In this document: one piece after another, positions 7,895 through 24,824 of the stretch
How positions within the stretch are numbered: position 1 is the first letter of the stretch
Layout: the number at the start of each line of letters is the position of its first letter
Source: Kaistia geumhonensis
Lineage (GTDB): Bacteria; Pseudomonadota; Alphaproteobacteria; Rhizobiales; Kaistiaceae
DNA: 64,000 nucleotides
Direction: 5' to 3'
NCBI RefSeq assembly: GCF_030815145.1
Contig: NZ_JAUSWJ010000001.1
Span: 3,958,501 to 4,022,500, forward strand
The notes under the pieces: model-generated
Database searches by the model: none
What the model was told of the DNA's origin: nothing
The model's input: the letters and a program-made list of their open reading frames with translations, nothing else
Translations under genes and position numbers: made by a program

Positions 7895-7922
7895 GGCTCT
7901 TCCCTCCGGCCCGGATCGAACC

Positions 7923-8714: not shown

Positions 8715-8741
8715 TACCGGCATCGACTGGGAGGTAGGACA

Positions 8742-10043: not shown

Positions 10044-11108
10044 TCAGTCGACGCGGCCGCGCGCGGCGACGGTCTCGGTTGCCACCACATGGTCGCCGGA
10101 GACGAGATGCACGCGGTCGAAGAGGTTGGAAACCGGGCAGGCGTGGTTCGGCAGGATGCGCAGCCGCTCGCCGATCTCGGGCTTCCGCGCCGAGGCCGAG
10201 AAATCGATGGTGCCGTGTTCCTCGCTCAGCCCGGTCACGACGGCGTCGGGATAACCGAGCACGAGGCCGTAGCCGGACAGGCCGAGCAGGTCGCTCGTCA
10301 GCGCCTTGGAGCCCGCATCGACGATGGCGCGATCGTCGGTCGGGCGGCTCACCACCGTCGTGAGGACGGTCAGCGCGCAGTCGTCCAGCGTGCCGACCCC
10401 TTTCGCGACCTGATAGCGATCGAGATAGATATAGGTGCCGGGCCGGTATTCGGTCGCCGCGGCCGTCTCATGCGCCGACCAGAGGTCGGGCGTGCCGCCG
10501 GTCGAGACGATCGCGGGGGGCAGGCCGGCATCGGCGAGCGCCGCGATGATCGCGCCGAGAAGTTCGCGAGCCGGCCCGGGGCTCCCGGCGGGCGGATAGG
10601 TCATGATGCCGCCGAAGGCGAGGCCGCGGCTTCCCGCGATCAGCGCCGCCAGGGCCACCGCCTCCTCTGGCGACTGCACGCCGCAGCGCCCCATGCCGGT
10701 GTCGCATTCGACCAGCACTCTGAGCGGCTTTTCCGCCTCCGCGAAGGTCGCGGCATAGCCCTCGATCGTCGGCGCGTTGTCGGCGGTGACGGCGAGCGTC
10801 AGCCTTTCGTTGAGCCGCCGCAGCCGGTGCAGCTTCTCGGGCCCGATGATGTTGTAGGGCAGGAAGATGTCGTCGAGGCCGGCATCGGCCATCACCTCGG
10901 CCTCGCCGAGCTTCTGGCAGGTGATGCCGATCGCCCCCAGCGCGACCTGCCGCTTGGCGAAGCGCGGCAGCTTGTGCGTCTTGATATGGGGACGCAGCCT
11001 CAGCCTGTGGGCGTCGGCATAATCCTGCGCCCGCGCGAGATTGGCTTCGGCGCGATCGATGTCGACGAGGACACAGGGCGTGTCGAGCTGGTCGATGGTC
11101 AGCGGCAT
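10044..11108 (-). CDS. DSD1 / D-threonine aldolase-type PLP enzyme
   Basis: A fold-type III (alanine racemase-like) PLP enzyme of 354 residues. RPHIKTHK carries the PLP lysine (Lys43) and NHACPVSN the metal site His322-x-Cys324. His-x-Cys is the arrangement of zinc D-serine dehydratases, while D-threonine aldolases usually show His-x-Asp, so D-serine/D-threonine dehydratase and beta-hydroxy-D-amino-acid aldolase activities are both possible. Third gene of the operon SDR-RpiR-this gene, 13 bases after the regulator. Confidence 0.82.
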   Translation of the reverse strand: MPLTIDQLDTPCVLVDIDRAEANLARAQDYADAHRLRLRPHIKTHKLPRFAKRQVALGAIGITCQKLGEAEVMADAGLDDIFLPYNIIGPEKLHRLRRLNERLTLAVTADNAPTIEGYAATFAEAEKPLRVLVECDTGMGRCGVQSPEEAVALAALIAGSRGLAFGGIMTYPPAGSPGPARELLGAIIAALADAGLPPAIVSTGGTPDLWSAHETAAATEYRPGTYIYLDRYQVAKGVGTLDDCALTVLTTVVSRPTDDRAIVDAGSKALTSDLLGLSGYGLVLGYPDAVVTGLSEEHGTIDFSASARKPEIGERLRILPNHACPVSNLFDRVHLVSGDHVVATETVAARGRVD

Positions 11109-11121
11109 TTCGGGTCCTCGT

Positions 11122-12003
11122 TCAGTCGCCGATGGGAAGGCGCGGGTCGTTGACCTTCAGCGTGTTGAGGCTGTGCTTGATGCGGCGAAGGCCTTCCAGG
11201 ACGCGCGGGCCGAGCTGCTCGGCCGTGGCGCTCGCCAGCATGTCGACGATGCCGATCAGGGCATAGCGCGTCGGCGAAGGGCGGAACAGCAGCTGCTCGT
11301 CCTCCGGCACCGCGAAGGAGATCACCGTCGCGGCAGCGTCCGCCAGCGCCGAGCCCGGCGCGGTGACGGCGATCGTCTCGGCGCCGTAGCCGCGCGCGAT
11401 GCGCACCGCCTCGACGAGCGGCTGCACATAGCCGGAGATCGAATAGGCGATCACCACCGTGCCGCTCGATGCGACCGAGGCCGTCATGCGCTGCATCTCG
11501 CCGTCGGAATGCGTTGCGACGGCGAGGCCGAGGCGGAACAGGCGGTGCTCGGTCTCGAGCGCCGCGATCGACGACGACCCTCCGGAGCCGAAGGCGAGCA
11601 CAGAGCGGGCGCGGGCGATATGCCCGGCCGCCTCGACGATGCGGCCGGCATCGACCTGCGCGCGCAGGAGTTCCAGCGCCCCGATCGCGCCGTCGGCGAC
11701 GGCGTCGACGAAGCGGCGTTCGGCGGCGCGGTCCGCGGCGCGGCTCGCGAGATAGGCGCCGCCGATGGCCAGCGCCTGGGCGAGACGGAACTTGAAATCG
11801 CGGATGCCGTCCGTGCCCACGGCGCGGCAGAAGCGGGTGACGGTCGGCTCGCTGGTGCCGGCGCGCCGCGCGAGATCGACGATCGAGGCGCGCGAGGCGA
11901 AATCGAGATCGGCGAGGATGGTGGTGGCCAGCCGCCGCTCCGACCGGCTGCCGCCGGCCTCGGCGCGGCGGATCGCCTCGATCAGGTCGATGACGGCCGC
12001 CAT
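11122..12003 (-). CDS. RpiR/MurR-family regulator of system A (HTH plus SIS)
   Basis: An N-terminal HTH_6 domain (GTSEPTVTRFCRAVG) and a C-terminal SIS domain (AFGSGGSSSIAALETEHRL) that in the family binds phosphosugars or amino sugars. The ATG at 12003, four bases after the SDR stop, is preferred over an in-frame start 20 codons upstream, whose extension is low complexity. Resembles the second RpiR protein at 18262-19128 in domain layout and in the IKHxL-type C-terminus. The likely target is the divergent promoter region at 12770-12892. Confidence 0.88.
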   Translation of the reverse strand: MAAVIDLIEAIRRAEAGGSRSERRLATTILADLDFASRASIVDLARRAGTSEPTVTRFCRAVGTDGIRDFKFRLAQALAIGGAYLASRAADRAAERRFVDAVADGAIGALELLRAQVDAGRIVEAAGHIARARSVLAFGSGGSSSIAALETEHRLFRLGLAVATHSDGEMQRMTASVASSGTVVIAYSISGYVQPLVEAVRIARGYGAETIAVTAPGSALADAAATVISFAVPEDEQLLFRPSPTRYALIGIVDMLASATAEQLGPRVLEGLRRIKHSLNTLKVNDPRLPIGD

Positions 12004-12007
12004 GCCG

Positions 12008-12769
12008 TCAGCCTCCGAGGATCTCGGCGACGAAGCGGCGGTTGCCGGCGGTGAGGCCTCCATCCACGGCCAGCGAGACGCCGGTGATGCCCGAGGAGAG
12101 CGGCGAGGCGAGGAAGAGCGCTGTGTGCGCCACTTCCTCCGGCGTCACGATCCGGCCGAGCGGATAGTGCTTCTCGACTTCCTCGAGCAGGTCGGGCCGC
12201 TTTTCGAGCCGGTGATCCCAGGCCGGCGTGCGCACCGAGCCGGGGCAGATGGCGTTGGCGCGGATGCCATGCCGCCCATGCTCGACCGCGAGCGCCCGTG
12301 CGAAGGCGTTGAGGCCCGCCTTGGCGGCCGAATAGGCGGGATTGCCGAAATGGGCCAGGCCGTTCACCGACGAGACGAGCACGATCGAGCCGCCTCCGGC
12401 CGCGATCATCGGCTGGAGCACGGGCGCGACGAAATTGTAGGTCCCGGTGAGGTTGACCGCGATCTCGCTGTCGAAGGCTTCGGGGGTCGTGTCGTCCATC
12501 AGCTCGGCGCGGCTGAAGCCGGCATTGGCTATCACGGCGGCAGGGGTGCCGGAACGGGCGATGATCGCGGCGAGCGCGTCGCGCGTCGCGGCCCGGTCGG
12601 TCAGCTCGAAGACGGTCGTCTCGGCCTGTCCGAGGCCGTGCAGAAGCGCCGCCTCGCGGTCGCAGGCGGTGACCCGCGCGCCGACGTCGAGAAAGAGGCG
12701 GACGAGCGCCCGGCCGATGCCGCCGCCCGCACCGCTGATGACGACATGTCTTCCCGCCAGATCGAACAT
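12008..12769 (-). CDS. Short-chain dehydrogenase/reductase
   Basis: A classical SDR of 253 residues: NAD(P)-binding SGAGGGIG near residue 12, NAG in IANAGFS, catalytic Ser in LVSSVNG and the Y-x3-K motif in PAYSAAKAGLN. The C-terminal TGVSLAVDGGL is standard. First gene of the minus-strand half of system A and divergent from ridA-M81. The substrate is unknown; neighbours suggest a hydroxy-acid or amino-sugar intermediate. Confidence 0.88.
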   Translation of the reverse strand: MFDLAGRHVVISGAGGGIGRALVRLFLDVGARVTACDREAALLHGLGQAETTVFELTDRAATRDALAAIIARSGTPAAVIANAGFSRAELMDDTTPEAFDSEIAVNLTGTYNFVAPVLQPMIAAGGGSIVLVSSVNGLAHFGNPAYSAAKAGLNAFARALAVEHGRHGIRANAICPGSVRTPAWDHRLEKRPDLLEEVEKHYPLGRIVTPEEVAHTALFLASPLSSGITGVSLAVDGGLTAGNRRFVAEILGG

Positions 12770-12830
12770 CGCCGCCTCCGATGAAGCCTCATGCTTCGCC
12801 GCAAAATGAAAAAAAGCAACATGGATTTGT

Positions 12831-12862
12831 CGCTTGACGGGCCATCATGTCGGGAATTTACA
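12831..12862 (+). promoter_or_regulatory. Probable promoter/operator of ridA-M81 (system A)
   Basis: TTGACG (12834-12839) is followed at 17-18 bases by a weak TTTACA/TTACAT. The stretch from 12831 to 12854 matches the system B promoter on the minus strand (24618-24641) at 19 of 24 positions. The 9-mer GAATTTACA at 12854-12862 also recurs there. The shared core may be the RpiR-bound region. Confidence 0.45.
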
Positions 12863-12892
12863 TAGACGTCCGGTTGGCGCAGGGAGATGGCG

Positions 12893-13267
12893 ATGGCGAA
12901 GCTGAAACAGGTCTACGGCGCGGCGCATGTGCCTCTTTCGCCGGCGGTCCGGGCCGGCGATTTCGTCTATATCTCCGGCCAGGTTCCGACCGACGCCTCG
13001 GGCGCCGTCGTCGCCGGCGGCATTGAGGCGCAGACCCGGCAGGTCATGGACAATGTGAAGGCCGCGCTGGCGCTTGCCGGCTGCTCGCTCGACCAGGTGG
13101 TCAAGACCTTCGTCATCCTTTCCGACGCGCGGGACTTCGGCGCCTTCAACAAGGTGTACGCGACCTATTTCCCGAGCGAGCCGCCGGCCCGCACGACGGT
13201 GGAGGCGCGTCTCATGATCGACATCCGCATCGAGGTCGAAGCCATCGCCTACGCGCCGCAAGGCTGA
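12893..13267 (+). CDS. RidA-family enamine/imine deaminase
   Basis: A 124-residue YjgF/RidA protein that in the family hydrolyses reactive enamines and imines released by PLP enzymes. Family stretches are visible: GDFVYISGQVPTD, the QVMDNVKAAL helix and the PPARTTVEA active-site arginine loop. Two ATGs lie six bases apart; AGGGAG at 12881-12886 abuts the first and is ideally spaced (six bases) for the second at 12893, which decides the start. Forms an operon with the M81 peptidase and faces the PLP-enzyme operon. Confidence 0.88.
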   Translation: MAKLKQVYGAAHVPLSPAVRAGDFVYISGQVPTDASGAVVAGGIEAQTRQVMDNVKAALALAGCSLDQVVKTFVILSDARDFGAFNKVYATYFPSEPPARTTVEARLMIDIRIEVEAIAYAPQG

Positions 13268-13273
13268 TCGTCC

Positions 13274-14758
13274 ATGCGCATCTTCACGGCCTCGTTCGCG
13301 ACCGAGACCAATACCTTCTCGCCCGTGCCGACCGACCGGGCGAGCTTCGAGATGGCCTTCTATGCGCCTCCCGGCGCCCATCCCGCCACGCCGACGCTCT
13401 GCTCCTCGCCGATGGTGGCGCTGCGCCGGCGCGCGGCTGCTGATGGCATCGATCTCGTCGAGGGCACCGCGACCTGGGCCGAGCCCGGCGGGCTGATGCA
13501 GCGCGCCGCCTATGAAGGGCTGCGCGACGAGATTCTCGGCCAGCTCGCCGCGGCGCTTCCGGTCGACGGCGTCGTGTTCGGCCTGCATGGCGCGATGGTC
13601 GCGCAGGGCTACGACGATTGCGAGGGCGATCTTCTGGAGCGCGTGCGGGCGATGGTCGGCCCCGATGTGATCGTCGCCGCCGAACTCGACCCGCACAGCC
13701 ACCTGACGCGCAAGCGGGTCGCCAACGCGGATATCCTGGCGAGCTTCCTGGAATTTCCGCACACCGATTTCTACGAGCGCGGCGAGCATGTCGTCGAACT
13801 CGCGATCCGCGCCATCCGGGGCGAGATCCGGCCGCGGATGTCGGTGTTCGACTGCCGCATGATCGAGGTGTTCCCGACCAGCCGCGAGCCGATGCGCTCC
13901 TTCGTCGACCGCATCAAGGCGATGCAGGGACAGGGAACGGTGCTGTCGATCTCGCTCATCCACGGTTTCATGGCAGGCGACGTGCCCGAACTCGGAACGC
14001 GCATGCTGGTGGTCACCGACGACGATCAGGCCGCCGGCGACGCGCTGGCGCGGACGCTCGGGCTCGAGATCTTTGGCCTGCGCGGCAAGACCATGATGCC
14101 GCAATACGGCATCGACGAAGGGCTCGACCGCGCGCTGGCGATCGCCGCCGAGCGTCCGGGCCGGCCGGTCGTCGCCGCCGACACCTGGGACAATCCGGGC
14201 GGCGGCGTCGCGGGCGACGGCACGCTGATCCTCCGCCGCATGATCGAACGCGGTCTGGACCGCATCGCGGTCGCGACCATCTGGGATCCGATCGCCGTCA
14301 CCTTCTGCATCGCGGCCGGGGAGGGCGCGCGCATCCCGCTGCGCTTCGGCGGCAAGGCGGGCCCGGATGGCGGCGCGCCGATCGATGCCGAGGTCGAGGT
14401 GCTGCGGGTCGCGGCCGAAGGCTGGCAGAGCTTCGGCATGAGCCGCGTCACGCTCGGGCCGGCGGCGGCGGTCCGCCTCGTCGGCACGACGATCGACGTC
14501 ATCCTCAACACCAACCGGACGCAGACCTTCGAACCCGACATCTTCACCAATCTCGGCATCGACCCGATGGCGAAGACGATGCTCCTGGTGAAGTCGACCA
14601 ACCACTTCTATGCCGGCTTCGCGCCGATCGCGTCGGAGATCGTCTATATCGACGCCGGCGCGCCCTATCCCTCCAATCCGCGCCTCACGGACTATCGCAA
14701 GCTCGACCGGCCGATCTGGCCGCGCGTCGAGGATCCGCACGACCTCGGCACCGTCTGA
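13274..14758 (+). CDS. M81 (MlrC-like) metallopeptidase, system A
   Basis: A 494-residue protein of the DUF1485/MlrC family, first known from microcystin-degradation clusters but found widely beside ABC importers. Likely zinc ligands are Asp139 and His141 (AELDPHSHL) and His163 (EFPHTDFYE); HGAM and YDDCEGD are family hallmarks. No signal peptide, so it is cytosolic. Six bases after ridA. It ends three bases from the stop of the convergent system B M81 gene. The real substrate is unknown: amide bonds in an imported conjugate are a guess. Confidence 0.85.
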   Translation: MRIFTASFATETNTFSPVPTDRASFEMAFYAPPGAHPATPTLCSSPMVALRRRAAADGIDLVEGTATWAEPGGLMQRAAYEGLRDEILGQLAAALPVDGVVFGLHGAMVAQGYDDCEGDLLERVRAMVGPDVIVAAELDPHSHLTRKRVANADILASFLEFPHTDFYERGEHVVELAIRAIRGEIRPRMSVFDCRMIEVFPTSREPMRSFVDRIKAMQGQGTVLSISLIHGFMAGDVPELGTRMLVVTDDDQAAGDALARTLGLEIFGLRGKTMMPQYGIDEGLDRALAIAAERPGRPVVAADTWDNPGGGVAGDGTLILRRMIERGLDRIAVATIWDPIAVTFCIAAGEGARIPLRFGGKAGPDGGAPIDAEVEVLRVAAEGWQSFGMSRVTLGPAAAVRLVGTTIDVILNTNRTQTFEPDIFTNLGIDPMAKTMLLVKSTNHFYAGFAPIASEIVYIDAGAPYPSNPRLTDYRKLDRPIWPRVEDPHDLGTV

Positions 14759-14761
14759 CCC

Positions 14762-16195
14762 TCAGCCTGCCCGCACCGAAGCGAGCACCTCAGGCGTGAA
14801 GGCGAAGTCGCGATCGAACGGGAACATCGGTCGTGTGCGGCGCAGATTGCCGATGCGCGGGATGTCCTGGTCGACCACGCCTTCCGAAAGCGCCATCAGG
14901 TTCGGATTGGCGATCGGGGCGAGGTCTGGCGAGAGATAACCGGACTTCACCACCACGAGATCGAAATCCTCGGGGCGGAAGCCGAAGCGCGTGAAATCGC
15001 CGATATCGTGGAACGGCCGGCGTCGGGCGGTCAGGATGATCGTCGCCTGGCCGCTGCGCACAACGGCTTCGCGCAGGTCCGCCTTCCCTGTTTCGAGAAG
15101 GGCGAGCACCTCGACCTCTGTCTCGACCGAGACGCCGGACGGGTCGAGCGTGGCGCCGATGGAGAGCCACAGACGCTGGCCGATGCCGGCGCGATAGGCG
15201 GCTTCGGTCGCCGGCCGGTCCGCGATTCCCGCGAAGAGCGCGCTGCCGCGTCCGCGGTCGAGGAAGACCGCCAGCACGTCGCCGCGGTCGCCGACGCCGC
15301 CGCCCGTCGGATTGTCGCCGGAATCGGCGAGGATCACCGGCCGCGTCGGCGAAGCGGCGGCGAGCGCGATGCACTCCTCGACCGATGTCGTGACGGGGCC
15401 GAAGCGGAAGTCCTCGCGGGCATCCCAGTAGGCGGCGGCGAGCCTGCGCGTCTCGGCCTCCATGGCGGCGCGGTCGGTACCCGTCAGGATGATCGAGGCG
15501 GTGGCGCGCGGCTCGTCGGCCCAGACATAGCCGACCATGATCGAGGCATCGAGAATGCCGGGTATAGCGTCGACCGCGGGCAGCCGCGCATAGAGCGACT
15601 TCGCCGGTTCGTCGACCGTGCTCGTGCGCTCGCCGGGCAGCAGCACCGGAACCCTGGCCCAGACCACGAACGGGTCGATCTCGCCCGCGAGGCGACGATG
15701 GAGCATCGCCAGCGCCCGCCGCTTGGTCTCGGTCACGTCGATATGTGGCGCGGTCCGGTAGGCCGAGAACATGTCGATCGCGTCGATGACGCGCTGGCTG
15801 ACATTGCCGTGCAGGTCATAGCTGACGGAGATCGGGCAATCGGGACCGACGACGGCGCGGGCCGCGGCACACCAGTCGCCCTCGCAATCGTCGATCCCCT
15901 CGACCTTCATCGCGCCATGCATGGCGAGATAGAGCCCGTCGATCGGCAGCGCCTGGCGCAGCCGCTCCAGGAATTCTGCGCGGAACGCCTCATAGGTCGC
16001 GCGCTCGACCGGGCCGCCGGGGATGGTGCGGGCATGGAAGGTGGGCGCGATCTCCCAGTCCCATTCGCCGAGGCAGGCGAAATCGGGCGAGGCGGTGAGT
16101 GCCGCGCCGGTCAGGATGGTGAAGTCCGTCGCCCGGGCCAGCAGCGGATTGTAGGTCGAGCATTCGGTATGGATGCCCCCGACGGCGATCCTCAT
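14762..16195 (-). CDS. M81 (MlrC-like) metallopeptidase, system B
   Basis: A 477-residue cytosolic MlrC-family protein. Asp127 and His129 (SYDLHGNVS) and His151 (TAPHIDVTE) are the likely metal ligands, closer to the usual DLHxN form than the system A copy. The ATG at 16195 overlaps the GH20 stop as ATGA; upstream extension of 25 codons lies inside GH20 and is non-homologous. Last gene of the Gfo-ABC-RpiR-GH20-M81 operon, so it should act on the same imported compound as the hexosaminidase. Confidence 0.86.
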   Translation of the reverse strand: MRIAVGGIHTECSTYNPLLARATDFTILTGAALTASPDFACLGEWDWEIAPTFHARTIPGGPVERATYEAFRAEFLERLRQALPIDGLYLAMHGAMKVEGIDDCEGDWCAAARAVVGPDCPISVSYDLHGNVSQRVIDAIDMFSAYRTAPHIDVTETKRRALAMLHRRLAGEIDPFVVWARVPVLLPGERTSTVDEPAKSLYARLPAVDAIPGILDASIMVGYVWADEPRATASIILTGTDRAAMEAETRRLAAAYWDAREDFRFGPVTTSVEECIALAAASPTRPVILADSGDNPTGGGVGDRGDVLAVFLDRGRGSALFAGIADRPATEAAYRAGIGQRLWLSIGATLDPSGVSVETEVEVLALLETGKADLREAVVRSGQATIILTARRRPFHDIGDFTRFGFRPEDFDLVVVKSGYLSPDLAPIANPNLMALSEGVVDQDIPRIGNLRRTRPMFPFDRDFAFTPEVLASVRAG

Positions 16196-18225
16196 GCGTT
16201 CTCTCCGGTGAGGTCCTGCCAGCCATAGAGGATCGGCATCATGCCGGCGATGGCGCGGAAGCGCTCCCACGACTTGTCGGAGGCGGGCGTCCAGGCCGTC
16301 TCCGCGATGGCCGAGAGGCGGGGGAAGACGAGGCGGTCGAAGATGGCGCGGTCGGACATCGGCTCGGACCAGATGCAGGCCTGGATGCCGAGAAAATGCT
16401 CCCGCTCCGCCTCGCTCCAGCCCCCGGTCGGATCGAAGCGATAGGTCTTTTCCGGGCTGGAGATGCCGGCCCAGCTGGCACCGGGCTCGGCCCAGTCGAT
16501 CGCCTGCGACATGTCGAGATAATAGGCCTGGCCCGGCGAGACGACGATGTCGTAGCCCTCGCGCGCCAGCGACGCCGAGACCTCGTGATTGCGCCAGCCG
16601 ACGAGATAGACCTTCGCCTTGTCGATGACATTGCCATGCGCGGCCTCTTCCCAGCCGCCGGTCACGCAGCCGCGCGAGGCGAGGAACGCCTGCACGCGGG
16701 CGAGGAACTCGGCCTGCAGGATCGCCGCGCCCGAGCCTTCGATGTGATCGGCGCCGTCATGGTTCGTCGTGACATTGTTGCGGCGCGCATGCGACTCGGC
16801 CGCCGCCTTGCCGGCCAGCGTCTCCAGCCGCGCCAGCGCCTGCGGCGAGCCGGACCAGGCGCCGAGCGGCACCTCGTCGGCGCCGATATGGATGATGCGG
16901 TCCGGGAAGAGCGGGATCAGCTCGTCGAAGATCGTCTCGAGGGCGCGGTAGGTTTCCTCGCGCGCCGGGTTGAGGCAGTTGTTTGGGAAGCCCTGCACCG
17001 ACTGGTATTCGCCGCTCTCGCCGGGATCGCGCAATTCGGGCAGCGCCTGCAGCAGCGCGTAGCAATGGCCGGGGATGTCGATCTCCGGCACGACGACGAT
17101 ACCGAGGCTCTTCGCATAGGCGACGATCTCGCGGATCGCGTCCTTCGTGTAGTAGCCGCCGGTCGGCTGCGGTCCGCTGCCGAGCAGCGGCGGCAGCTTG
17201 AGGCCGTGGCCGCGCCAGGCGGCGATCTCCGTCAGCGCCGGATAGGCCTCGATCTCGACGCGCCAGGCCTCGTCGTCCGAGAGATGCCAGTGGAAGCGGT
17301 TCATCTTGTTCCAGGCGAGGATGCGCAGCAGCGCCTTGATCTCGCCTGTCGAATAGAACTGCCGCGACACGTCGAGATGGGTGCCGCGCCAGCCGAGCTG
17401 CGGCGCATCGGCGATGTGGCCGGAGGCGGGGAAGAGGAACGCCGAAGGGTGGCGGAGCGCGCCGCGCAGGATCTGGCCGAGCGTGACGAGGCCATACAGG
17501 AAACCCGTCTCGGTCGAGGCCGCGACGGCGATCGCGTCGGCGGCGAAGTCGATGCGATAGGCCTCGGCGGCGAAGCCCTCGCGCTTCTCCAGCGTGACCG
17601 TGCGCCCGCCCTCGGCGGCGCTCCGCACCAGCGCGTCGCCGGGGAACAGCGCATCGGCGAGGCCCGCGAAGGTCGCGGCCGCGGCTGCCGCTTCCGCGGT
17701 CGTGCCGGCAGGCGCGAGCCCGGCCGGCGTCGGCGCCCGGCCGGCGACGGCGACCTCGGCCGGCCAGGGAATGACCGAGACGGAGACCGGTGCGGTGGCC
17801 GGAACGGGATAGAGCACCGCGCCACGCTTCAGCGGCGCGTTGTCGCCGCGCGCGACCGTCGCCGCGATGGCGACCGGAACGGCGCTGTCGTCCGCGAGGA
17901 TCACATAGGCGGACGTGGCGCCGTCGCTCCAGTGGCGCAGCGGGTAGGAGAGGCCGCGCACCGTCAGCGTCCAGCTCGCGCCCGCCTCCAGCACGAAGCC
18001 CTCCGGCGGCGCGAATTCGGCATGGTTGGACAGCCGCGCCACGAGCGTGCCGCCTTCGACGACCGCCTTCGGATCGATGCGCGCCGGCCCGTTGACCGCG
18101 AGGCGGAAGCCGGAAAGCGGCGTGTCGGAGCGGTTGCTCAGCGTCAGCCTGTAGGAAAGCGGACGCCCTTCGGCGGGCGGCGTCCATTCGGTTTCGAGGC
18201 GGAGGGCGCGCGGCGCGATGGTCAT
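16192..18225 (-). CDS. GH20 beta-N-acetylhexosaminidase
   Basis: A 677-residue glycoside hydrolase. An N-terminal beta-rich region (1-130) is followed by a GH20b-like domain and the GH20 barrel from about residue 275 (WRGTHLDVSRQFYS, FHWHLSDDEAWR). The catalytic Asp450-Glu451 pair is in HIGADEVPLGAW. No signal peptide is present, so the enzyme is predicted to be cytosolic and to act on imported N-acetylhexosaminides. It is in the ABC importer operon, 36 bases after the RpiR gene, and is coupled to the M81 peptidase. Confidence 0.9.
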   Translation of the reverse strand: MTIAPRALRLETEWTPPAEGRPLSYRLTLSNRSDTPLSGFRLAVNGPARIDPKAVVEGGTLVARLSNHAEFAPPEGFVLEAGASWTLTVRGLSYPLRHWSDGATSAYVILADDSAVPVAIAATVARGDNAPLKRGAVLYPVPATAPVSVSVIPWPAEVAVAGRAPTPAGLAPAGTTAEAAAAAATFAGLADALFPGDALVRSAAEGGRTVTLEKREGFAAEAYRIDFAADAIAVAASTETGFLYGLVTLGQILRGALRHPSAFLFPASGHIADAPQLGWRGTHLDVSRQFYSTGEIKALLRILAWNKMNRFHWHLSDDEAWRVEIEAYPALTEIAAWRGHGLKLPPLLGSGPQPTGGYYTKDAIREIVAYAKSLGIVVVPEIDIPGHCYALLQALPELRDPGESGEYQSVQGFPNNCLNPAREETYRALETIFDELIPLFPDRIIHIGADEVPLGAWSGSPQALARLETLAGKAAAESHARRNNVTTNHDGADHIEGSGAAILQAEFLARVQAFLASRGCVTGGWEEAAHGNVIDKAKVYLVGWRNHEVSASLAREGYDIVVSPGQAYYLDMSQAIDWAEPGASWAGISSPEKTYRFDPTGGWSEAEREHFLGIQACIWSEPMSDRAIFDRLVFPRLSAIAETAWTPASDKSWERFRAIAGMMPILYGWQDLTGENA

Positions 18226-18261
18226 GGCAGGGCCTGTCGGTGGTTCGTCGGAGGGGAGGGA

Positions 18262-19128
18262 TCAGTCGCCGAGCGGCTGCGTGTCGTCGCCGTCGCGGTT
18301 GACCATGAGCTGGTGCTTGATGCGGCGCATGCTCTCGACGGAGCGCGGCTGCATGCGGGTCGCGACGGTCTGCGCGACCGCGTCGATCATGGCGAGGAAG
18401 GCGTAGCGGGCCGAGGACGGCCGCAGGATGTCGTCCTGTTCGGGTACGTCGATGGCGAGCAGCACGTCGGCCTGTTCCGCGACCGGCGAGCCGGGGCGCG
18501 TCAGCACGATGCGCTCGAGATGATATTCGCCGGCGATGGCGAGCGTGTTGGCGAGCTGCAGGTTCCGCCCGCTGGTCGAGGAGGCGATGATGACGGTGCC
18601 CTTCGGCGCCCCGGCGGTGCGCATCATCTGCGCCTGGTGATCGATCGAGGCGGTGACGCGCAGGCCGAGCCGGAAGAGGCGGGTCTCGATCTCGTTGGCG
18701 ATCATGGACGATGCGCCGCCGGAGCCGAAGGACAGGATGTAGGGCGCTCCGGCGATGCGTTCCGCCGCCGCCTCGATCGCCATCGGATCGATGGTCTCGA
18801 AGAAGGAATAGAGCGTCGCCTGCGCACAGTTGACGATGTGCCGCGCGATCTCGCCGGCCGTCTCGGGGCCGGAGGGCGGCAGAAGGTAGCGGCGGGCGAT
18901 GAAGCGGCTCTGCGCGAGGCGGACCTTGAAATCGGCAAAGCTCTGGCAGCCGAGGCGCCGGCAGAAGCGCGTCACGGTCGGCGGCGAGGTGTCGGCCCGC
19001 GCCGCCAGTTCGACGATGGACGCGTTGACCGCCGCCTGCACGTCGGAGAGTACGAGATCGGCGAGCCGCCGCTCGGAGCGGCTGAGGCTCTCCATCTCCG
19101 TCTGCAACAGGCCGACGAGGTCCAGCAT
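18262..19128 (-). CDS. RpiR/MurR-family regulator of system B (HTH plus SIS)
   Basis: A 288-residue HTH_6 (DTSPPTVTRFCRRLG) plus SIS (SFGSGGASSMIANEIETRL) protein. It is embedded within the operon between the ABC ATPase and GH20. Related members sense phosphorylated amino sugars such as MurNAc-6-P, which fits a hexosaminidase operon. Candidate operators lie in the region upstream of the first operon gene (24594-24705). Confidence 0.9.
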   Translation of the reverse strand: MLDLVGLLQTEMESLSRSERRLADLVLSDVQAAVNASIVELAARADTSPPTVTRFCRRLGCQSFADFKVRLAQSRFIARRYLLPPSGPETAGEIARHIVNCAQATLYSFFETIDPMAIEAAAERIAGAPYILSFGSGGASSMIANEIETRLFRLGLRVTASIDHQAQMMRTAGAPKGTVIIASSTSGRNLQLANTLAIAGEYHLERIVLTRPGSPVAEQADVLLAIDVPEQDDILRPSSARYAFLAMIDAVAQTVATRMQPRSVESMRRIKHQLMVNRDGDDTQPLGD

Positions 19129-19151
19129 GGCGGCGGCCTTCCTGCCGATGG

Positions 19152-20243
19152 TCAGGCCGCGACGCCGATGGCGGCGCCCGAGGAATCGAAGAGATGGCAG
19201 GCGGAAGGATCGACGCTGACCGTGACCTCCTCGTCGTCCCTCACCGGCGGATCGCCCTCGAACAGCGCGACGAAGGTGTCGCCGGAGGGGAGGGGCGCAT
19301 AGGCGACGGTGTGGATGCCGAGCCGCTCGATGATGCCGGGCTTCAGCGCGAGGCGGAACCCGGTGTCCTGATCGAGGCGGACATGCTCGGGCCGGATGCC
19401 GACCGAAAGCGTCTCGCCGACGAGGCCGGCGCTGCCCGGCCGCGGCAGCGTGATCGTGCCGAGCGGGCCGAGATCGACGGTGACGCCGCTGCCGCTCGCG
19501 GCCGTGCAGCGGCCCTCGAGGAAGTTCATCTTCGGATTGCCGATGAAGCCGGCGACGAAGCGGTTCTGCGGGCGGTGATAGAGATCGAGCGGCGTGCCGA
19601 CCTGCTCGATGCGGCCGCCGTTCAGCACGACGATCTTGTCGGCCATGGTCAGGGCCTCGACCTGGTCGTGCGTCACATAGATCATCGTCGCGCCGAGGCG
19701 CTTGTGCAGGCGCGTCAGCTCGACCCGCATGTCGGAGCGCAGCGCCGCGTCGAGGTTCGAGAGCGGCTCGTCGAACAGGAAGATGCGTGGCTCGCGGACG
19801 ATGGCGCGGCCGATGGCGACGCGCTGGCGCTGGCCGCCGGACAGCATGCCCGGCTTGTGCTGCAGGCGGCTTTCGAGCTGCAGGATGCGGGCCGCCTCGC
19901 CGACGCGGTGGCGGACCTCGTCTTCCGCCAGCCGCTCGACGCGCAGCGGGAAGGCGATGTTCTCGAACACGCTCATATGCGGATAGAGCGCATAGGACTG
20001 GAAGACCATGGCGATGCCGCGCTTGACGGGCGGCAGGTCGTTGACCGGCTTGCCGGCGATGACGATCTCGCCGCCGCTGACCTCTTCGAGGCCGGCGATC
20101 ATGCGCAGGAGCGTGGACTTGCCGCAGCCCGACGGTCCCACGAAGACGACGAACTCGCCCTCGGTGACGTCGAGGTCGACGCCCTTGATGACGTCCGTGC
20201 CGCCGAAGGATTTCTTCAGGCGTGAAAGCGTGAGCGCGCTCAA
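19152..20243 (-). CDS. Sugar ABC transporter ATP-binding protein (UgpC/MsmK type)
   Basis: A 363-residue ATPase with Walker A GPSGCGKST (36-44), signature LSGGQRQR, Walker B IFLFDEPLSNLD and a C-terminal TOBE/regulatory domain as in MalK-type carbohydrate importers. The start codon appears to be TTG at 20243; no better ATG or GTG is in frame upstream, and GGAG lies nine bases before it. Separated from the binding-protein gene by a two-hairpin repeat. Confidence 0.9.
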   Translation of the reverse strand: MSALTLSRLKKSFGGTDVIKGVDLDVTEGEFVVFVGPSGCGKSTLLRMIAGLEEVSGGEIVIAGKPVNDLPPVKRGIAMVFQSYALYPHMSVFENIAFPLRVERLAEDEVRHRVGEAARILQLESRLQHKPGMLSGGQRQRVAIGRAIVREPRIFLFDEPLSNLDAALRSDMRVELTRLHKRLGATMIYVTHDQVEALTMADKIVVLNGGRIEQVGTPLDLYHRPQNRFVAGFIGNPKMNFLEGRCTAASGSGVTVDLGPLGTITLPRPGSAGLVGETLSVGIRPEHVRLDQDTGFRLALKPGIIERLGIHTVAYAPLPSGDTFVALFEGDPPVRDDEEVTVSVDPSACHLFDSSGAAIGVAA

Positions 20244-20267
20244 GTCTTCGGTCTCCGCTGGAGAGAA

Positions 20268-20350
20268 GCCCTCACCCCGGCCTTTCCCGCGAGCGGGAGA
20301 GGCGGCAGGCGCCTTCCCCTCTCCCGTGGGAGAGGGGTCGGGACGAGGGC
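20268..20350. repeat. REP/BIME-like double hairpin between binding protein and ATPase
   Basis: Two strong hairpins lie side by side: 20281-20302 (ten pairs, GA loop, one wobble) and 20316-20337 (CCCCTCTCCC-GT-GGGAGAGGGG, perfect). They are framed by GCCCTC at 20268-20273 and GAGGGC at 20345-20350. This composition is typical of the short palindromic intergenic repeats common in Hyphomicrobiales. Its position after the binding-protein gene suggests mRNA 3'-end protection or partial termination, so that binding protein is made in excess. Confidence 0.75.
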
Positions 20351-20357
20351 CCTGGCC

Positions 20358-21572
20358 TTACTTGTACTGGTCGATGGCGCCGGCCGCCTTGGTCAGCGCG
20401 GCGGCGGGCTCGGCATTGCCGGTCACGACCGACTGGACCATGTCGATCATGGCGTTCTGGAAGCCCTTGTAGTCGAGGAACAGCGGCTCCGGACCACCGA
20501 AGGCGATGCCGTCGAGGAACGGCTTCCAGCTCGGATCCTCCGCGACGAGGCCGTCGACGCCGGCCACGGGGCGCAGCGGCGTCAGGCCGTGCGTCTTCTC
20601 GTAGAGGAACTGGTTCTCGGGATTGGTCAGCAGCTTGGCGAGGTCGATCGCCTGCTCCTCGACGCCGGTGCCCTTGAACACGGCAAGGCTGTCGGTGATC
20701 AGCAGCGTGCCGGGACCCTTGGCCTTCGGGCCGACCGGAAGCGGCGCGACGCCCCACTGGATGTCCTTCGAGACCTGGTTGCGGACCCAGGGGCCGCCCT
20801 CGATCATCGCCACCTTGGCGTCCGAGAACAGCTTGATCATGTCGTCCTGGTCATAGGCCGAGGGACCGTCCTCGGAATAGGGCACCAGGCTCTTGATGAA
20901 TTCGAGCGCCTCGAGATTCTGCGGGCTGTCGAGGGTGATCTTGCCCTCGGAATCGATCACGGTGCCGTCGTTCGTGTACACGTAGTGCAGGAACTGGTGC
21001 ATCGTGTTGTCCATGGTCTTGGCCGGCAGGCCGTAACCGGGGACGCCCGTCTTCTCCTTGATGGTCTTGGCGTCGCTCAGCAGTTCCGCCCAGGTGGTCG
21101 GCGGCTTGTTCGGGTCGAGGCCGGCCTTCTCGAACAGCGCCTTGTTCCAGAACAGCGCCTTGGTAGAGAAGGCGACCGGGATGCCCCAGGCCTGGTCCTG
21201 GAAGGTGACCGTCTCGACAATATGCGGGTAGTAGCCGGCCTTTTCCTCGTCCGTCATCGGGATCGGGACGATGAGGTCGCTGTCGGCGAACTGCTTCAGC
21301 GTGCGCGAGCCGACATAGGCGAGCCCGACGGGCGTTCCGGCGGCGGCGAGGGTCGTGATCTTGTCCTGGCACTGCGCCCAGCCGACGATCTCGACATTGA
21401 CCTTGAAGCCGGGATTGGCGGCTTCCCACTTCTTGATCAGATCCGGATAGGTCTCGGCGATCGCGTCGCCGCACTGGATCATGCTGACCGTCTTGTCCTC
21501 GGCGAAGGACGGAGCCGTCATCGTCGCCAGGACGACGGCGCTTCCCGCCAGAAGGGTCCCGTAATGTCTCAT
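20358..21572 (-). CDS. Sugar ABC transporter substrate-binding protein
   Basis: A 404-residue periplasmic cluster B (MalE/UgpB-like) binding protein. The signal peptide is MRHYGTLLAGSAVVLATM... with cleavage probably after the AFA-type PSFA near residue 24. The family stretches WAELLSDAKTIKEKTG and ALFEKAGLDPNKPPTTWAEL are visible. Its ligand is not predictable from sequence; the GH20 gene suggests an N-acetylhexosamine-containing oligosaccharide or conjugate. Confidence 0.9.
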   Translation of the reverse strand: MRHYGTLLAGSAVVLATMTAPSFAEDKTVSMIQCGDAIAETYPDLIKKWEAANPGFKVNVEIVGWAQCQDKITTLAAAGTPVGLAYVGSRTLKQFADSDLIVPIPMTDEEKAGYYPHIVETVTFQDQAWGIPVAFSTKALFWNKALFEKAGLDPNKPPTTWAELLSDAKTIKEKTGVPGYGLPAKTMDNTMHQFLHYVYTNDGTVIDSEGKITLDSPQNLEALEFIKSLVPYSEDGPSAYDQDDMIKLFSDAKVAMIEGGPWVRNQVSKDIQWGVAPLPVGPKAKGPGTLLITDSLAVFKGTGVEEQAIDLAKLLTNPENQFLYEKTHGLTPLRPVAGVDGLVAEDPSWKPFLDGIAFGGPEPLFLDYKGFQNAMIDMVQSVVTGNAEPAAALTKAAGAIDQYK

Positions 21573-21629
21573 CGCTTTCCCTCGTTGTTTGGCCGGCCCT
21601 TCTCGTCGGGTCGGTGCTGCGCCTGAGCG

Positions 21630-22490
21630 CTATTGCTTGACGGCGCCGGCGGTGAGGCCGGCCACCAGGTAGCGCTGCAGGAAGATGAAGCCGATCATCA
21701 CCGGAGCGATGCCGACGAAGCTGGCCGCCATCAGCTCGTTCCAGACCACGCGCTCCTTGCCGAAGAAGGCGAACAGGCCCACGGCGAGCGGCATGTATTC
21801 CGATTTCGAGTTGAAGGTCAGCGCGAAGATGAACTGTTGTGCATAGGCGCCGATGAAGGTGGCGAGCGCCACGACGAGGATGCCGGGCCCGGCGATCGGC
21901 AGGACGATGCGGCGCAGGATGTAGAGCCGGCTGGCGCCGTCGACCCAGGCCGCCTCGTCGAGCTCGCGCGGGATGCGCAGCATATAGGTCCGAAGCAGCC
22001 AGATCGCCGAGGGGATCAGGAAGGCGACGCCCGGCACGATCATCGCGAAATAGGTGTTGAGCAGGCCCATGGAGCGCATCAGCCGGTAGAGCGGGATGAG
22101 CAGCACGGCGCCGGAGAACATGTTGACCGCGAGGAAGGCGCCGAGCAGCGCGCCGGCGCCGCGGAACTGGAAGCGGGCGAAGGCATAGGCGGCCGGCACG
22201 ACGAGGATCAGCACCGCGATCGTCGCCACGGTCGAGATCAGCAGCGAGTTGAAGATGTAGCGGCCGAGCAGCGGCACATGCTCCCACATCGTGAAATAGG
22301 CGTCGAACGAGCCGTCGTCGGGCCAGAAGCGATAGGGCGACGAGAAGAGATGCGTCAGGGGCTTCAGGGAGACAAGGAAGCCCTCGACGAAAGGCGCCAG
22401 CACGAAGGTCAGGAACAGCGCCAGGCCGCAATAGATCGCGACATATTCGTACCAGCGATAGCGGTCGATCATCGGGCGTCCGCTGCTCAT
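21630..22490 (-). CDS. Sugar ABC transporter permease (MalG type)
   Basis: A 286-residue inner-membrane permease with six hydrophobic segments and the EAA loop ELDEAAWVDGASRLYILRRIVLP that contacts the ATPase. The ATG at 22490 overlaps the stop of the first permease as ATGA, indicating coupled translation of the pair. Longer in-frame extensions upstream lie within the other permease gene and are not homologous. Confidence 0.92.
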   Translation of the reverse strand: MSSGRPMIDRYRWYEYVAIYCGLALFLTFVLAPFVEGFLVSLKPLTHLFSSPYRFWPDDGSFDAYFTMWEHVPLLGRYIFNSLLISTVATIAVLILVVPAAYAFARFQFRGAGALLGAFLAVNMFSGAVLLIPLYRLMRSMGLLNTYFAMIVPGVAFLIPSAIWLLRTYMLRIPRELDEAAWVDGASRLYILRRIVLPIAGPGILVVALATFIGAYAQQFIFALTFNSKSEYMPLAVGLFAFFGKERVVWNELMAASFVGIAPVMIGFIFLQRYLVAGLTAGAVKQ

Positions 22491-23371
22491 TTGCCTTCTC
22501 CCGTTGAGATCTTGCTGACGACGCGGAAGTAGAAGAAGCAGAAGACCGACAGGAACAGGCAGATCATCACGGCGCGGGCGGCGCCCTCGCCATATTTGTA
22601 CGAGCCGATCGCCGTCTTGTAGGTGTCGATGATCATCGTGGTGGTCTGGCCGTTCGGCCCGCCCTGGGTCAGGATCCAGATGATGTCGAAGGAATTGAAG
22701 GTCGCGATCAGCGACAGCATCGACATCGTGACCAGCGCCGGCACGATCAGCGGCAGCGTGATGCGGCGGAAGCGGTAGAAGCGGCCGGCGCCGTCCGTCC
22801 AGGCGGCCTCGTAAAGATCCTTCGGGATCGACTGGATGGCGGCCAGCAGGTAAAGCGTCACCAGCGGCACGCCGATCCACACATCGGTGATGATCGTCGC
22901 CCAGAAGGCGGTTCCGCCATAGGCCAGCCAGGCGAGCGGCCGGTCGAGCAGGCCGACATTCTGCAGGACGCCGGAGATCATCCCGAACTGGCCGTTATAC
23001 ATCCAGCCCCACATGAAGATGCCGATGGCCATCGGCACGATCCAGGGCGGCAGGGTCAGGACGCGGAAGAGGGCGCGGCCCGGCACCAGCGCGTTGAGCA
23101 GCACGGCGCCGCAGGTGCCGATGATCATCTTGATGGCGACGGAGAAGAACGTCCAGACGAAGGTCCGGACGATGATCGTCGCGAAATCGCCGCCGAAGAT
23201 CTTCTGGTAGTTCGCCCAGCCGACCCATTTCACCGTCTTGCGCAGCGAGGCGTCGGTGAAGGAGAGCGTGAAGGTGTCGACCAGCGGATAGGCGACGATG
23301 ATCAGGATGTAGAGGATGGCCGGAAGAAGAAGGGCGAGGGCGAAGAGCGTGGCACCGCGGGAGCCCGTCAT
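22487..23371 (-). CDS. Sugar ABC transporter permease (MalF type)
   Basis: A 294-residue inner-membrane permease with six hydrophobic segments. The EAA loop DLYEAAWTDGAGRFYRFRRITLP lies in the C-terminal third. It pairs with the MalG-type permease to form the channel. It starts 10 bases after the Gfo/Idh stop. Confidence 0.92.
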   Translation of the reverse strand: MTGSRGATLFALALLLPAILYILIIVAYPLVDTFTLSFTDASLRKTVKWVGWANYQKIFGGDFATIIVRTFVWTFFSVAIKMIIGTCGAVLLNALVPGRALFRVLTLPPWIVPMAIGIFMWGWMYNGQFGMISGVLQNVGLLDRPLAWLAYGGTAFWATIITDVWIGVPLVTLYLLAAIQSIPKDLYEAAWTDGAGRFYRFRRITLPLIVPALVTMSMLSLIATFNSFDIIWILTQGGPNGQTTTMIIDTYKTAIGSYKYGEGAARAVMICLFLSVFCFFYFRVVSKISTGEGK

Positions 23372-23381
23372 CGCCGCGTCC

Positions 23382-24539
23382 TCAGTTGCCGCCGCCGGCG
23401 AGCGCCGCGTCGAAGCGCTTCCAGGTCTCGGTCATGTCGACGACCTGCCGCGTGCGCCGCGCCTCGTCCATGGCGAGCGCCAGCAGGCCGGCTTCCAGCG
23501 CATTGACGACCGAGACCGGCAGCGGCGCGCCGTTCAGCATGTGGGCGCCGATGTCGCGGGCCATCTGTTCGTCGGCACCGTAATGGACCGAGAGTTCCGA
23601 GCCGGTATAGGCGGTATCGATCACCTTCTGCGACGTCCGCGCGTCATGGACGCGGAAGAAGTTGCGCACGAAGTCGCCTTCCGCCATGCCCTTGGCGCCG
23701 ATCACGCAGAAACGGCGGAATTCGTCGGGCACGTTCAGATTGGTGTGGAAGGTCATCGACGCGCCGTTCGCGTATTCCACGATCGCGGTCTGGAAATCGA
23801 TGATGTCGGCATCGCTGTCGAACACCTTGTCGGTTCCCATCCAGCCGCTCGGCTTGCGATGATAGACCTCGGTGTCGTTGATGCCGAGTCCTTCCGGCGC
23901 ATTCTTCGGAACGAAGCTGCGCTTGCCGCCGAAACTCGCGACGCGGGACGGGCGAACGCCCATGACGCCGTTGTAGAGGTCGAGGTCGTGGCAGCATTTC
24001 TCCAGCATGAACGAGCCGGAATACTTCTCGTAGCGCCGCCAGTCGCGCATGAAGAACGCGCCGTGATAGGGCGCGATATGCTCCGAAGCCTCGATCGAGA
24101 CGATGTCGCCGAGAAGGCCTTCCGCCTGCGCCTTGCGCAGGTCCACATAGAGCGGTGCGTAGCGCAGCACGAGGCCGACCATGACATTGTCGGAACCGTG
24201 CTCGGCGATCAGCTTCGCCAGTTCCATCGTCTCCTCTGTCGAGGTCACCACCGGCTTCTCGGTGAAGACCTTCACGCCATGGTCGAGGCCGGTGCGGATA
24301 TGGCCGAGATGGAGATGGTTCGGCGAGCCGACCATCAGGAGGTCGAGCTTTTCGCCCGCGAGCAGCGCCTCGAGCGTCTCGTAGTTCTTGCCGACCGGAA
24401 CGTCGAACTGCTTCGTGTAGGAGAGCCCGGCCGGCTCCGGGTCCACATAGCCGACGACCTCGAAATCGGGCAGCGAGGCCGAGAAGATGCGCGCCAGATA
24501 GCCCAGCCGATAGCCGAGCCCGACAATGCCGACTTTCAT
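23382..24539 (-). CDS. Gfo/Idh/MocA-family oxidoreductase
   Basis: A 385-residue NAD(P)-dependent sugar-type dehydrogenase. The N-terminal Rossmann fold reads KVGIVGLGYRLG, and EKP at 94-96 is the family motif with its catalytic lysine. The ATG at 24539 is preceded by AGGGA five bases away; an upstream in-frame start 17 codons earlier lacks this. First gene of the long system B operon, so it probably oxidises or epimerises the sugar brought in by the importer. Confidence 0.9.
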   Translation of the reverse strand: MKVGIVGLGYRLGYLARIFSASLPDFEVVGYVDPEPAGLSYTKQFDVPVGKNYETLEALLAGEKLDLLMVGSPNHLHLGHIRTGLDHGVKVFTEKPVVTSTEETMELAKLIAEHGSDNVMVGLVLRYAPLYVDLRKAQAEGLLGDIVSIEASEHIAPYHGAFFMRDWRRYEKYSGSFMLEKCCHDLDLYNGVMGVRPSRVASFGGKRSFVPKNAPEGLGINDTEVYHRKPSGWMGTDKVFDSDADIIDFQTAIVEYANGASMTFHTNLNVPDEFRRFCVIGAKGMAEGDFVRNFFRVHDARTSQKVIDTAYTGSELSVHYGADEQMARDIGAHMLNGAPLPVSVVNALEAGLLALAMDEARRTRQVVDMTETWKRFDAALAGGGN

Positions 24540-24593
24540 TGAATTCCCTGCATATGACGTATGGTCCGAACGCATGCCGCGCCCGGCCATTTC

Positions 24594-24641
24594 TGTAAAT
24601 TCTTTCCACGATCATGCCGCAACATGTCGGCCTGTCAAGCG
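24594..24641 (-). promoter_or_regulatory. Promoter/operator region of the system B operon
   Basis: On the minus strand a perfect TTGACA (24633-24638) and CATGAT (24611-24616, four of six) are 16 bases apart, predicting a leader of about 65 bases. The stretch 24618-24641 matches the system A promoter at 19 of 24 positions. Just downstream, GTAAATTCTTTCC at 24595-24607 is an imperfect inverted repeat (G-N-AAA / TTT-N-C) sitting on the predicted start and containing the 9-mer shared with system A. Confidence 0.55.
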
Positions 24642-24686
24642 GGCATTTGTTGCATCGCCCCGCATTTCCGCGGCTTTCTGACAAGG

Positions 24687-24705
24687 TCTGAAAGGACTTT
24701 TCAGA
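24687..24705. promoter_or_regulatory. Inverted repeat between system B and the MFS gene
   Basis: TCTGAAA-GGACT-TTTCAGA is a perfect 7-5-7 inverted repeat in the 285-base divergent gap between the Gfo/Idh gene and the MFS gene. It lies about 50 bases upstream of the system B -35 and 120 bases upstream of the MFS start. It could bind the RpiR protein or a separate regulator; no direct evidence favours either. The rest of this gap shows nothing else clear. Confidence 0.4.
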
Positions 24706-24824
24706 AAATGATCGCGCTGCTGAATTTCCGGGCAGTCCGACGCTTCGCCCGCCGACCGTCCGGGCCCCACCTGGGCGTCCGGCCGCCGGAGCTTTCCCGC
24801 TTGTGCCGAGGTCGCGAACGCGCG

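Follow-up and report, generated by a model that had tools for sequence, protein, structure and literature searches.

The closest described counterpart of the locus studied here is the marine ong pathway for oxidised chitin of Pseudoalteromonas prydzensis ACAM 620, whose cluster comprises a GH20 enzyme, an SSS importer, a MurR/RpiR regulator, RidA, OngB, OngC and KdgK (PMC9537276). OngB is a D-aminoacylase-type deacetylase of N-acetylglucosaminate (GlcNAc1A), and OngC converts glucosaminate to 2-keto-3-deoxygluconate (KDG) and also deaminates D-serine and D-threonine (PMC9537276). In the available portion of that report, the strains carrying ong are all Gammaproteobacteria but one betaproteobacterium (PMC9537276). 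Our work concerns a gene cluster at positions 10044-24539 of a 64-kb stretch of the genome of the soil bacterium Kaistia geumhonensis (the window, that is, the whole stretch analysed, positions 3958501-4022500 of the single 4.59-Mb contig). We suggest that the most likely role of this cluster is the uptake of an N-acetyl amino sugar, its oxidation and then its degradation like a D-amino acid, and that it appears to work like the ong pathway without being a member of it.

Canonical N-acetylglucosamine (GlcNAc) catabolism proceeds through NagK, NagA and NagB. The starting sugar is likely the same as that of the window cluster; however, no kinase, NagA or NagB family match was found among the cluster proteins, and NagA is encoded elsewhere in the genome. 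Pfam scans, together with a PF07364 search of the genome for the second M81 gene, confirmed the cluster as complete, with all the families named in an earlier sequence-only reading of this DNA. It has two parts: a core, in which RidA and M81B diverge from a short-chain dehydrogenase/reductase (SDR), RpiR2 and a pyridoxal phosphate (PLP) enzyme, and an import/glycoside part with Gfo/Idh, a sugar ATP-binding cassette (ABC) importer, RpiR1, GH20 and M81A. RidA and M81B are the only cluster genes on the forward strand. The features are, in window order:

10044-11108, reverse: DSD-like fold-type III PLP enzyme (Pfam D-ser_dehydrat and Ala_racemase_N), predicted 2-amino-2-deoxyaldonate (D-3-hydroxy amino acid) dehydratase/deaminase
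11122-12003, open reading frame (ORF) open to 12063, reverse: RpiR2, MurR/RpiR (HexR-like) regulator (Pfam HTH_6 and SIS)
12008-12769, reverse: SDR dehydrogenase (Pfam; best NCBIfam model NF005474, under its cut-off), proposed N-acetylhexosamine C1 dehydrogenase
12848-12862, forward: putative RpiR operator TGTCGGGAATTTACA in the divergent RidA/SDR promoter (shared-site search)
12887-13267, forward: RidA-family enamine/imine hydrolase (PF01042; TIGR00004 at 105.4 bits, narrowly missing the cut-off of 106.25)
13274-14758, forward: M81B, MlrC-like metallohydrolase (PF07364), proposed N-acetyl-2-amino-2-deoxyaldonate deacetylase
14762-16195, reverse: M81A, second M81/MlrC metallohydrolase (Pfam)
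16192-18225, reverse: GH20 beta-N-acetylhexosaminidase (Pfam; closest solved relative Nag2), probably cytosolic
18262-19128, reverse: RpiR1, MurR/RpiR (HexR-like) regulator (Pfam HTH_6 and SIS)
19152-20243, reverse: MalK/UgpC-type ABC ATPase (Pfam, NCBIfam)
20358-21572, reverse: sugar-binding protein SBP_bac_1 (Pfam), with an apparent signal peptide judged by eye
21630-22490, ORF open to 22880, reverse: sugar ABC permease 2 (Pfam, NCBIfam)
22487-23371, reverse: sugar ABC permease 1 (Pfam)
23382-24539, reverse: Gfo/Idh/MocA oxidoreductase (Pfam), first gene of the import operon
24594-24608, reverse: putative RpiR operator TGGAAAGAATTTACA upstream of the Gfo/Idh operon (shared-site search)

No signal peptide was seen by eye in the GH20 translation. 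The raw permease ORFs overlap by 394 bp, and the true start of permease 2 is probably near 22490.

We consider it reasonably probable that the cluster encodes a co-regulated oxidative pathway, without phosphorylation, that degrades an N-acetylhexosamine, either GlcNAc or N-acetylgalactosamine (GalNAc), delivered as a small glycoside. The glycoside would be taken in by the ABC importer and the N-acetylhexosamine freed by the cytosolic GH20. The SDR would oxidise C1, and the lactone would open to an N-acetyl-aldosaminate, from which M81B, acting as an N-acyl-D-amino-acid amidohydrolase, would remove the acetyl group. The resulting 2-amino-2-deoxyaldonate, a D-configured 3-hydroxy amino acid, would then be dehydrated and deaminated by the PLP enzyme, RidA hydrolysing the enamine/imine, to give a 2-keto-3-deoxyaldonate. 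A kinase and an aldolase encoded elsewhere in the genome would complete the degradation, and RpiR1 and RpiR2 would control both operons via TGKNRRGAATTTACA. Gene content, conservation, the shared site and the substitution of enzymes between homologous loci are read directly from the DNA; each enzymatic step is predicted from them.

The outline of the sequence-only reading holds: import of a hexosamine-containing compound, a cytosolic GH20, an M81 enzyme opening an amide, a PLP enzyme acting on a D-configured beta-hydroxy amino acid with the help of RidA, and a single catabolic unit, probably co-regulated, all agree with the data presented below. Two of its elements are not supported. It proposed a separate amino acid partner in a glycoconjugate, but its 'D-beta-hydroxy amino acid' would most probably be nothing other than the oxidised amino sugar, as in ong, where the D-hydroxy amino acid is glucosaminate (PMC9537276). 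It also held, as far as it could judge, that no known pathway has this set of genes, but GH20, MurR/RpiR, RidA, an N-acyl-D-amino-acid-type deacetylase and a fold-type III PLP deaminase are found together in ong (PMC9537276).

The two parts of the cluster are tied by a common promoter sequence. The window has just two copies of GAATTTACA, one in the promoter region between RidA and SDR and the other ahead of Gfo/Idh, whereas shuffled sequences lead one to expect 0.03 copies. A 15-base pattern derived from this pair, TGKNRRGAATTTACA, matches nowhere else in the 4.59-Mb genome, and its reversed control has no match there; a longer promoter pattern built by eye had no match, and the shorter shared site was used in its place. 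Three loci of the same genus (L074, L075 and L076) carry GAATTTACA in both promoters, two of them (L075 and L076) with RpiR1 only, and a fourth (L077) has it in one promoter and CGATTTACA in the other. The site is present once each in two loci that lack the GH20 part (L079 and L090) and is absent from two that have no RpiR match (L078 and L089). In the other genera checked, the promoters of the cluster did not show it. We read it as an RpiR operator linking both modules in this genus, the pairing of regulator and site being suggested by their co-occurrence. As the gene set is conserved in other genera and the same site lies in both promoters, the arrangement goes beyond chance, and the cluster is probably a co-regulated unit.

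A dehydratase releases an enamine, and enamines are cleared by RidA proteins. The solved relatives of the window enzyme are D-threonine aldolase (4v15, 177.6 bits), a BhcC-type D-3-hydroxyaspartate aldolase (152.6 bits) and D-threo-3-hydroxyaspartate dehydratase (3wqc, 149 bits). With the latter it shares the fold-type III family and the metal motif H-x-C, here NHAC, whereas the aldolases compared have SHVD or GHCD (H-x-D). The motif is kept in 70/70 relatives at ≥45% identity and in 3/11 more distant matches, two of them partial. An aldolase role is disfavoured by H-x-C, although the overall scores lean to aldolases. The 3-hydroxy-D-aspartate aldolase model of BhcC (NF045642) gave 203.5 bits, below its curated cut-off of 690. 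Compared with 3wqc, the substrate of the window enzyme is likely a longer polyhydroxy chain.

Among 385 genomes sampled evenly across the class, with scoring limited to the top few candidates of each, at least 24, our own included, encode a PLP relative that is ≥47% identical; the next best reaches 43%. Within the fetched stretch, the other 23 loci combine it with M81B (8/23), with a D-aminoacylase (3/23), with an EF_0837-type deacetylase and no M81B (4/23), or with none of these (8/23), and RidA was detected in 10/23. The D-aminoacylase stands in place of M81B in the order dipeptide ABC-D-aminoacylase-RidA-PLP in Azospirillum, L063 and L067. At L245, the PLP gene and RidA occur together with an amino-acid ABC and a KDG-type kinase, and no deacylase was detected. 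At L239 (10631-12346), a sulfatase with a weak match to the C-terminal domain of N-sulphoglucosamine sulphohydrolase adjoins the PLP gene, and SDR, RidA and RpiR matches lie nearby.

The glutamate of the Adda-Glu bond, on which the M81 enzyme MlrC acts, is D-configured. M81B is a relative of MlrC (7ylq) across its full length (363.5 bits, phmmer), and MlrC cuts the Adda-Glu amide (PMC12474180). The PF07364 search gave two matches in the genome, at 289.5 and 332.6 bits. The zinc residues described for MlrC (D167/H169/H191) and 3IUU (D138/H140/H162; PMC4810221) have counterparts, by alignment and spacing, in M81B (D139/H141/H163) and M81A (D127/H129/H151), which places both in the M81 metallohydrolases (PF07364/PF07171) by family score and by their Asp/His/His residues. 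M81B shares with MlrC the zinc triad at the same spacing and would share amide hydrolysis, but it has another gene neighbourhood, and its predicted substrate is a small N-acetylated sugar acid rather than Adda-Glu peptides. M81A scored 149.3 bits against the MlrC microcystinase model NF041767, below the curated cut-off of 999. In the literature searched, we found no tie between M81 and amino-sugar catabolism; in their available portions, the papers found deal mostly with microcystins, the others being a genome and a transcriptome study.

The window cluster and ong have in common GH20, MurR/RpiR, RidA, a predicted deacetylase for an N-acylated, D-amino-acid-like sugar acid and a fold-type III PLP deaminase with H-x-C; the proposed route would also share with ong the product KDG and the lack of an initial phosphorylation. 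The predicted window deacetylase is nevertheless of the M81 family, whereas OngB is of the D-aminoacylase type. The window has a sugar ABC importer and a GH20 without apparent signal peptide, instead of an SSS importer and a periplasmic GH20, and an SDR (with Gfo/Idh) instead of extracellular oxidation by a lytic polysaccharide monooxygenase. It adds M81A and has no kinase in the cluster (a candidate lies outside), unlike ong with KdgK (PMC9537276). We looked for counterparts of OngB and OngC in the cluster and, finding neither, rejected membership in ong. Twelve cluster proteins have no amidohydrolase-superfamily match in Pfam, and the thirteenth, M81B, matches PF07364; elsewhere in the genome, the Azospirillum D-aminoacylase had no match at E ≤ 1e-45 among the 3 of 42 candidates scored. 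The window PLP enzyme is 19-25% identical to 16 OngC-type proteins, all of which have H-x-C (SHPC), and falls in a separate clade; it is thus not an OngC orthologue.

When 396 genomes of the phylum were searched for D-aminoacylase, 52 gave matches; of the 58 places listed, we selected 20 by eye and fetched them. Ten of them (L263-L272) are ong-like, with GH20, RidA, RpiR and D-aminoacylase in 10/10, an OngC-type PLP enzyme in 10/10 and a kinase match in 6/10; in L264, an SSF transporter and a 2-keto-3-deoxy-6-phosphogluconate (KDPG) aldolase were also checked and found. Among the other ten, six have an OngC-type protein without a GH20 match (L273, L276, L277, L279, L280 and L282) and four have none. 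The first of these, L273 (1-11672, genome G726, of another class), encodes a sugar ABC importer, an SDR, an OngC-type PLP enzyme, RpiR, a D-aminoacylase, a 2-keto-3-deoxygalactonokinase (DGOK, 284.7 bits) and RidA. Its SDR is 50% identical to that of the window and exceeds the NF005474 cut-off, its importer resembles that of Phyllobacterium (binding protein 60%, permease 68%), and its D-aminoacylase is 42-50% identical to those of the ong-like loci and groups with that of L057. In L273, a window-type SDR and a Phyllobacterium-type importer appear to serve an ong-type core. Its kinase marks the product as a 2-keto-3-deoxyaldonate, and the presence of SDR and kinase together argues against the SDR standing in for a kinase. 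L273 looks like an oxidative GalNAc pathway, which suggests that the substrate may be GalNAc as well as GlcNAc.

We tabulated 75 stretches, a mixture of the class and phylum samples with same-genus loci and with plasmid records that had been picked because of their matches; 32 of them hold M81B. Where M81B is accompanied by a sugar ABC importer (n=15), the SDR is present in 15/15 and a KDG-type kinase in 0/15 of the stretches. With only importers of the tripartite ATP-independent periplasmic (TRAP) or dipeptide type (n=12), the SDR is found in 0/12 and a KDG-type kinase in 6/12; with neither importer type (n=5), the SDR is found in 5/5. The TRAP-type loci of Paracoccus and Phaeobacter have RpiR divergent from TRAP-M81B-PLP, with a kinase and RidA, and the best models for these kinases are KDG or KDG/2-keto-3-deoxygalactonate (KDGal) kinase, below curated cut-offs. 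Candidates for the downstream steps exist in our own genome: two KDPG aldolases score over the cut-off, and a kinase-like gene at genome position 4023112, about 0.6 kb past the window end, is 33% identical to the Paracoccus kinase, with KDG/KDGal kinase as its best model (177.8 bits, cut-off 400).

Several observations weigh against the pathway that we propose. The association of SDR and sugar importer has a Fisher p of 5.8e-8, but the tree gives only three importer changes, and with two to three independent pairs the link is suggestive rather than a significant independent test. The lack of a KDG-type kinase in the 15 sugar ABC loci would be compatible, too, with an SDR that acts downstream. 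The pathway as drawn has no step for M81A or Gfo/Idh, and M81B is not always beside the PLP gene, being without it in Sinorhizobium meliloti (L179) and Shinella (L178). By overall score, the PLP enzyme is nearer to D-threonine aldolase (177.6) than to the hydroxyaspartate dehydratase (149), and it is distant from OngC; the binding protein and permeases of L273 are only 27-34% identical to those of the window, an importer of another type. Furthermore, the PLP relatives at L232-L236 (63-65% identity), L246-L253 (49-51%) and L054 (60%) lack any deacylase or RidA match within their stretches, and by Pfam those at L232, L054 and L246 neighbour cytochrome c assembly, FtsZ/FtsA and similar genes. With so many relatives lacking a nearby deacylase or RidA, this PLP family may serve D-serine and D-threonine generally. 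Finally, our genome has one NagA over the cut-off with ROK- and CutC-like matches beside it (L197), so that ordinary GlcNAc use may exist as well. L232-L236 and L246-L253 are in themselves two same-order groups with dehydratase-type H-x-C PLP enzymes.

We regard as unlikely the substrate of the sequence-only reading, a genuine conjugate in which an N-acetylhexosamine carries a D-beta-hydroxy amino acid in amide linkage and from which, after import, GH20 would remove the sugar, M81 open the amide and the PLP enzyme degrade the amino acid. M81A directly follows GH20 in 9/9 tabulated loci that have both, as would suit an extra amidase for which the oxidised-sugar model has no need, and in some genomes its relatives adjoin ABC genes that look to be of the dipeptide type. 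The KDG-type kinases of the TRAP-M81B-PLP-RidA loci and the kinase of L273 nevertheless point to a keto-sugar acid as the product of the PLP enzyme, and the homologous loci of Phyllobacterium and Nitratireductor have no glycosidase among their listed neighbours and no GH20 match. The conjugate idea survives mainly for M81A.

Only a low probability, in our view, attaches to M81B, RidA and the PLP enzyme forming a general salvage route for N-acyl or peptide-bound D-serine or D-threonine that merely adjoins a sugar importer. PLP relatives that stand alone, the dipeptide-type ABC partners at L064, L071, L073 and L178 and the deamination of D-serine and D-threonine by OngC (PMC9537276) would all suit such a role; it leaves aside, however, the site common to the core and the sugar importer operon, the SDR in every M81B locus with a sugar ABC, the KDG-type kinases in half of the TRAP/dipeptide-importer M81B loci and in L245, and the 2-keto-3-deoxygalactonokinase of L273. 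An SDR acting after the PLP enzyme on the 2-keto-3-deoxyaldonate, with the first oxidation carried out by Gfo/Idh or before import, is improbable: it would account for KDG-type kinases being found with TRAP/dipeptide importers and not with SDR and sugar ABC, as if replaced by the SDR, but L273 has SDR and kinase together, and Gfo/Idh was not detected, at a threshold of 50% identity, in four loci with the SDR (L172, L177, L237 and L238).

Within the genus, M81B is present in 13/14 genomes, our own included, and in 15/28 genomes of the family. The core locus was fetched from 8 of the 12 other same-genus genomes having it, and RidA-M81B divergent from SDR-(RpiR2)-PLP was found in 8/8. The Gfo/Idh-ABC-RpiR1-GH20-M81A part accompanies it in 4/8 (L074-L077, not L078, L079, L089 or L090), which gives the full cluster in four other genomes of the genus. 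M81A relatives at E ≤ 1e-90 were found in our own genome only among the 385; of 308 M81A relatives, 80 were kept, and a GH20 match occurs in 4/80 of their stretches, all of the Kaistia group, so that M81A was rejected as a marker of the GH20 part. A gene of the major facilitator superfamily (MFS) at 24561-26282 was likewise rejected as an importer, its best models being the efflux-type MdtD/EmrB, below cut-off; an MFS gene adjoins M81B in Kaistia-group loci without the GH20 part. On the other side of the cluster, genes for a metallo-beta-lactamase-fold protein, a TauE/SafE exporter and a pyridine nucleotide-disulphide oxidoreductase are consecutive at 6569-10037, and one may guess at sulfide or persulfide detoxification.

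Beyond the genus, the whole set, with one RpiR rather than two, occurs in Qingshengfaniella alkalisoli (L184) and in a genome of the same order (L242). Allorhizobium pseudoryzae (L174) has the one-RpiR set with ABC genes running off the fetched stretch and Gfo/Idh not seen, and pSymB of S. meliloti strain ml28 (L179) has it with the PLP gene absent from the locus; in strain ml45 (L188), the neighbours of a PLP relative are an amino-acid ABC and RidA. Identities to the window in these four loci (L174, L179, L184 and L242) are 53-61% for M81A, 55-59% for M81B and 40-45% for GH20; three of the loci also have Gfo/Idh (55-65%) and permease 1 (63-78%), and the ABC ATPase is 62-64% identical to its S. 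meliloti, Allorhizobium and Qingshengfaniella counterparts. The window core is nearest to Phyllobacterium (M81B 77%, RidA 75%, PLP 70%, SDR 57%) and the ABC-Gfo/Idh part nearer to the Rhizobium/Sinorhizobium type. The Kaistia cluster thus looks like a merger of two homologous systems. In L184 (15463-18192), Gfo/Idh is followed in the same orientation by genes for CutC, for a ROK protein whose best model, below cut-off, is N-acetylglucosamine kinase, and for an SIS protein annotated as MurQ.

In S. meliloti, SMb21151 has been tied to the uptake of 'sugar amines' (PMC2848018) and is listed beside SMb21552 (aacC4, an acetyltransferase; PMC3687685); judging from gene order, it would be the ATPase of L179. 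A GNAT acetyltransferase gene lies between M81B and the ABC genes of that locus (14081-14581), and others adjoin GH20 in Rhizobium/Sinorhizobium loci with an ABC of dipeptide-type appearance (L181, 8794-9264; L182, 17479-17949). One might guess that GNAT makes glucosamine units accessible to GH20 by acetylating them again. Glucosaminate is among the root-exudate metabolites of common bean, with and without phosphorus (PMC4192682), and is a possible plant-side substrate for the rhizobial versions of the locus.

We give about even weight to a broader picture in which Alphaproteobacteria have an entire oxidative route inside the cell for free N-acetylhexosamines (GlcNAc or GalNAc), in which an M81 'peptidase' deacetylates, a new catabolic role on sugar acids, the PLP enzyme was recruited independently of OngC, and deacetylase families (M81, or amidohydrolases of D-aminoacylase or EF_0837 type) were swapped between similar loci. 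If true, this would give a function to a class of 'M81 metallopeptidases' and would extend the oxidised-amino-sugar route from Gammaproteobacteria and, in the available account of its distribution, one betaproteobacterium (PMC9537276) to rhizobia and Rhodobacterales. It would also explain the neighbourhood of these genes on S. meliloti and Rhizobium replicons, and it predicts an intracellular N-acetylhexosamine 1-dehydrogenase.

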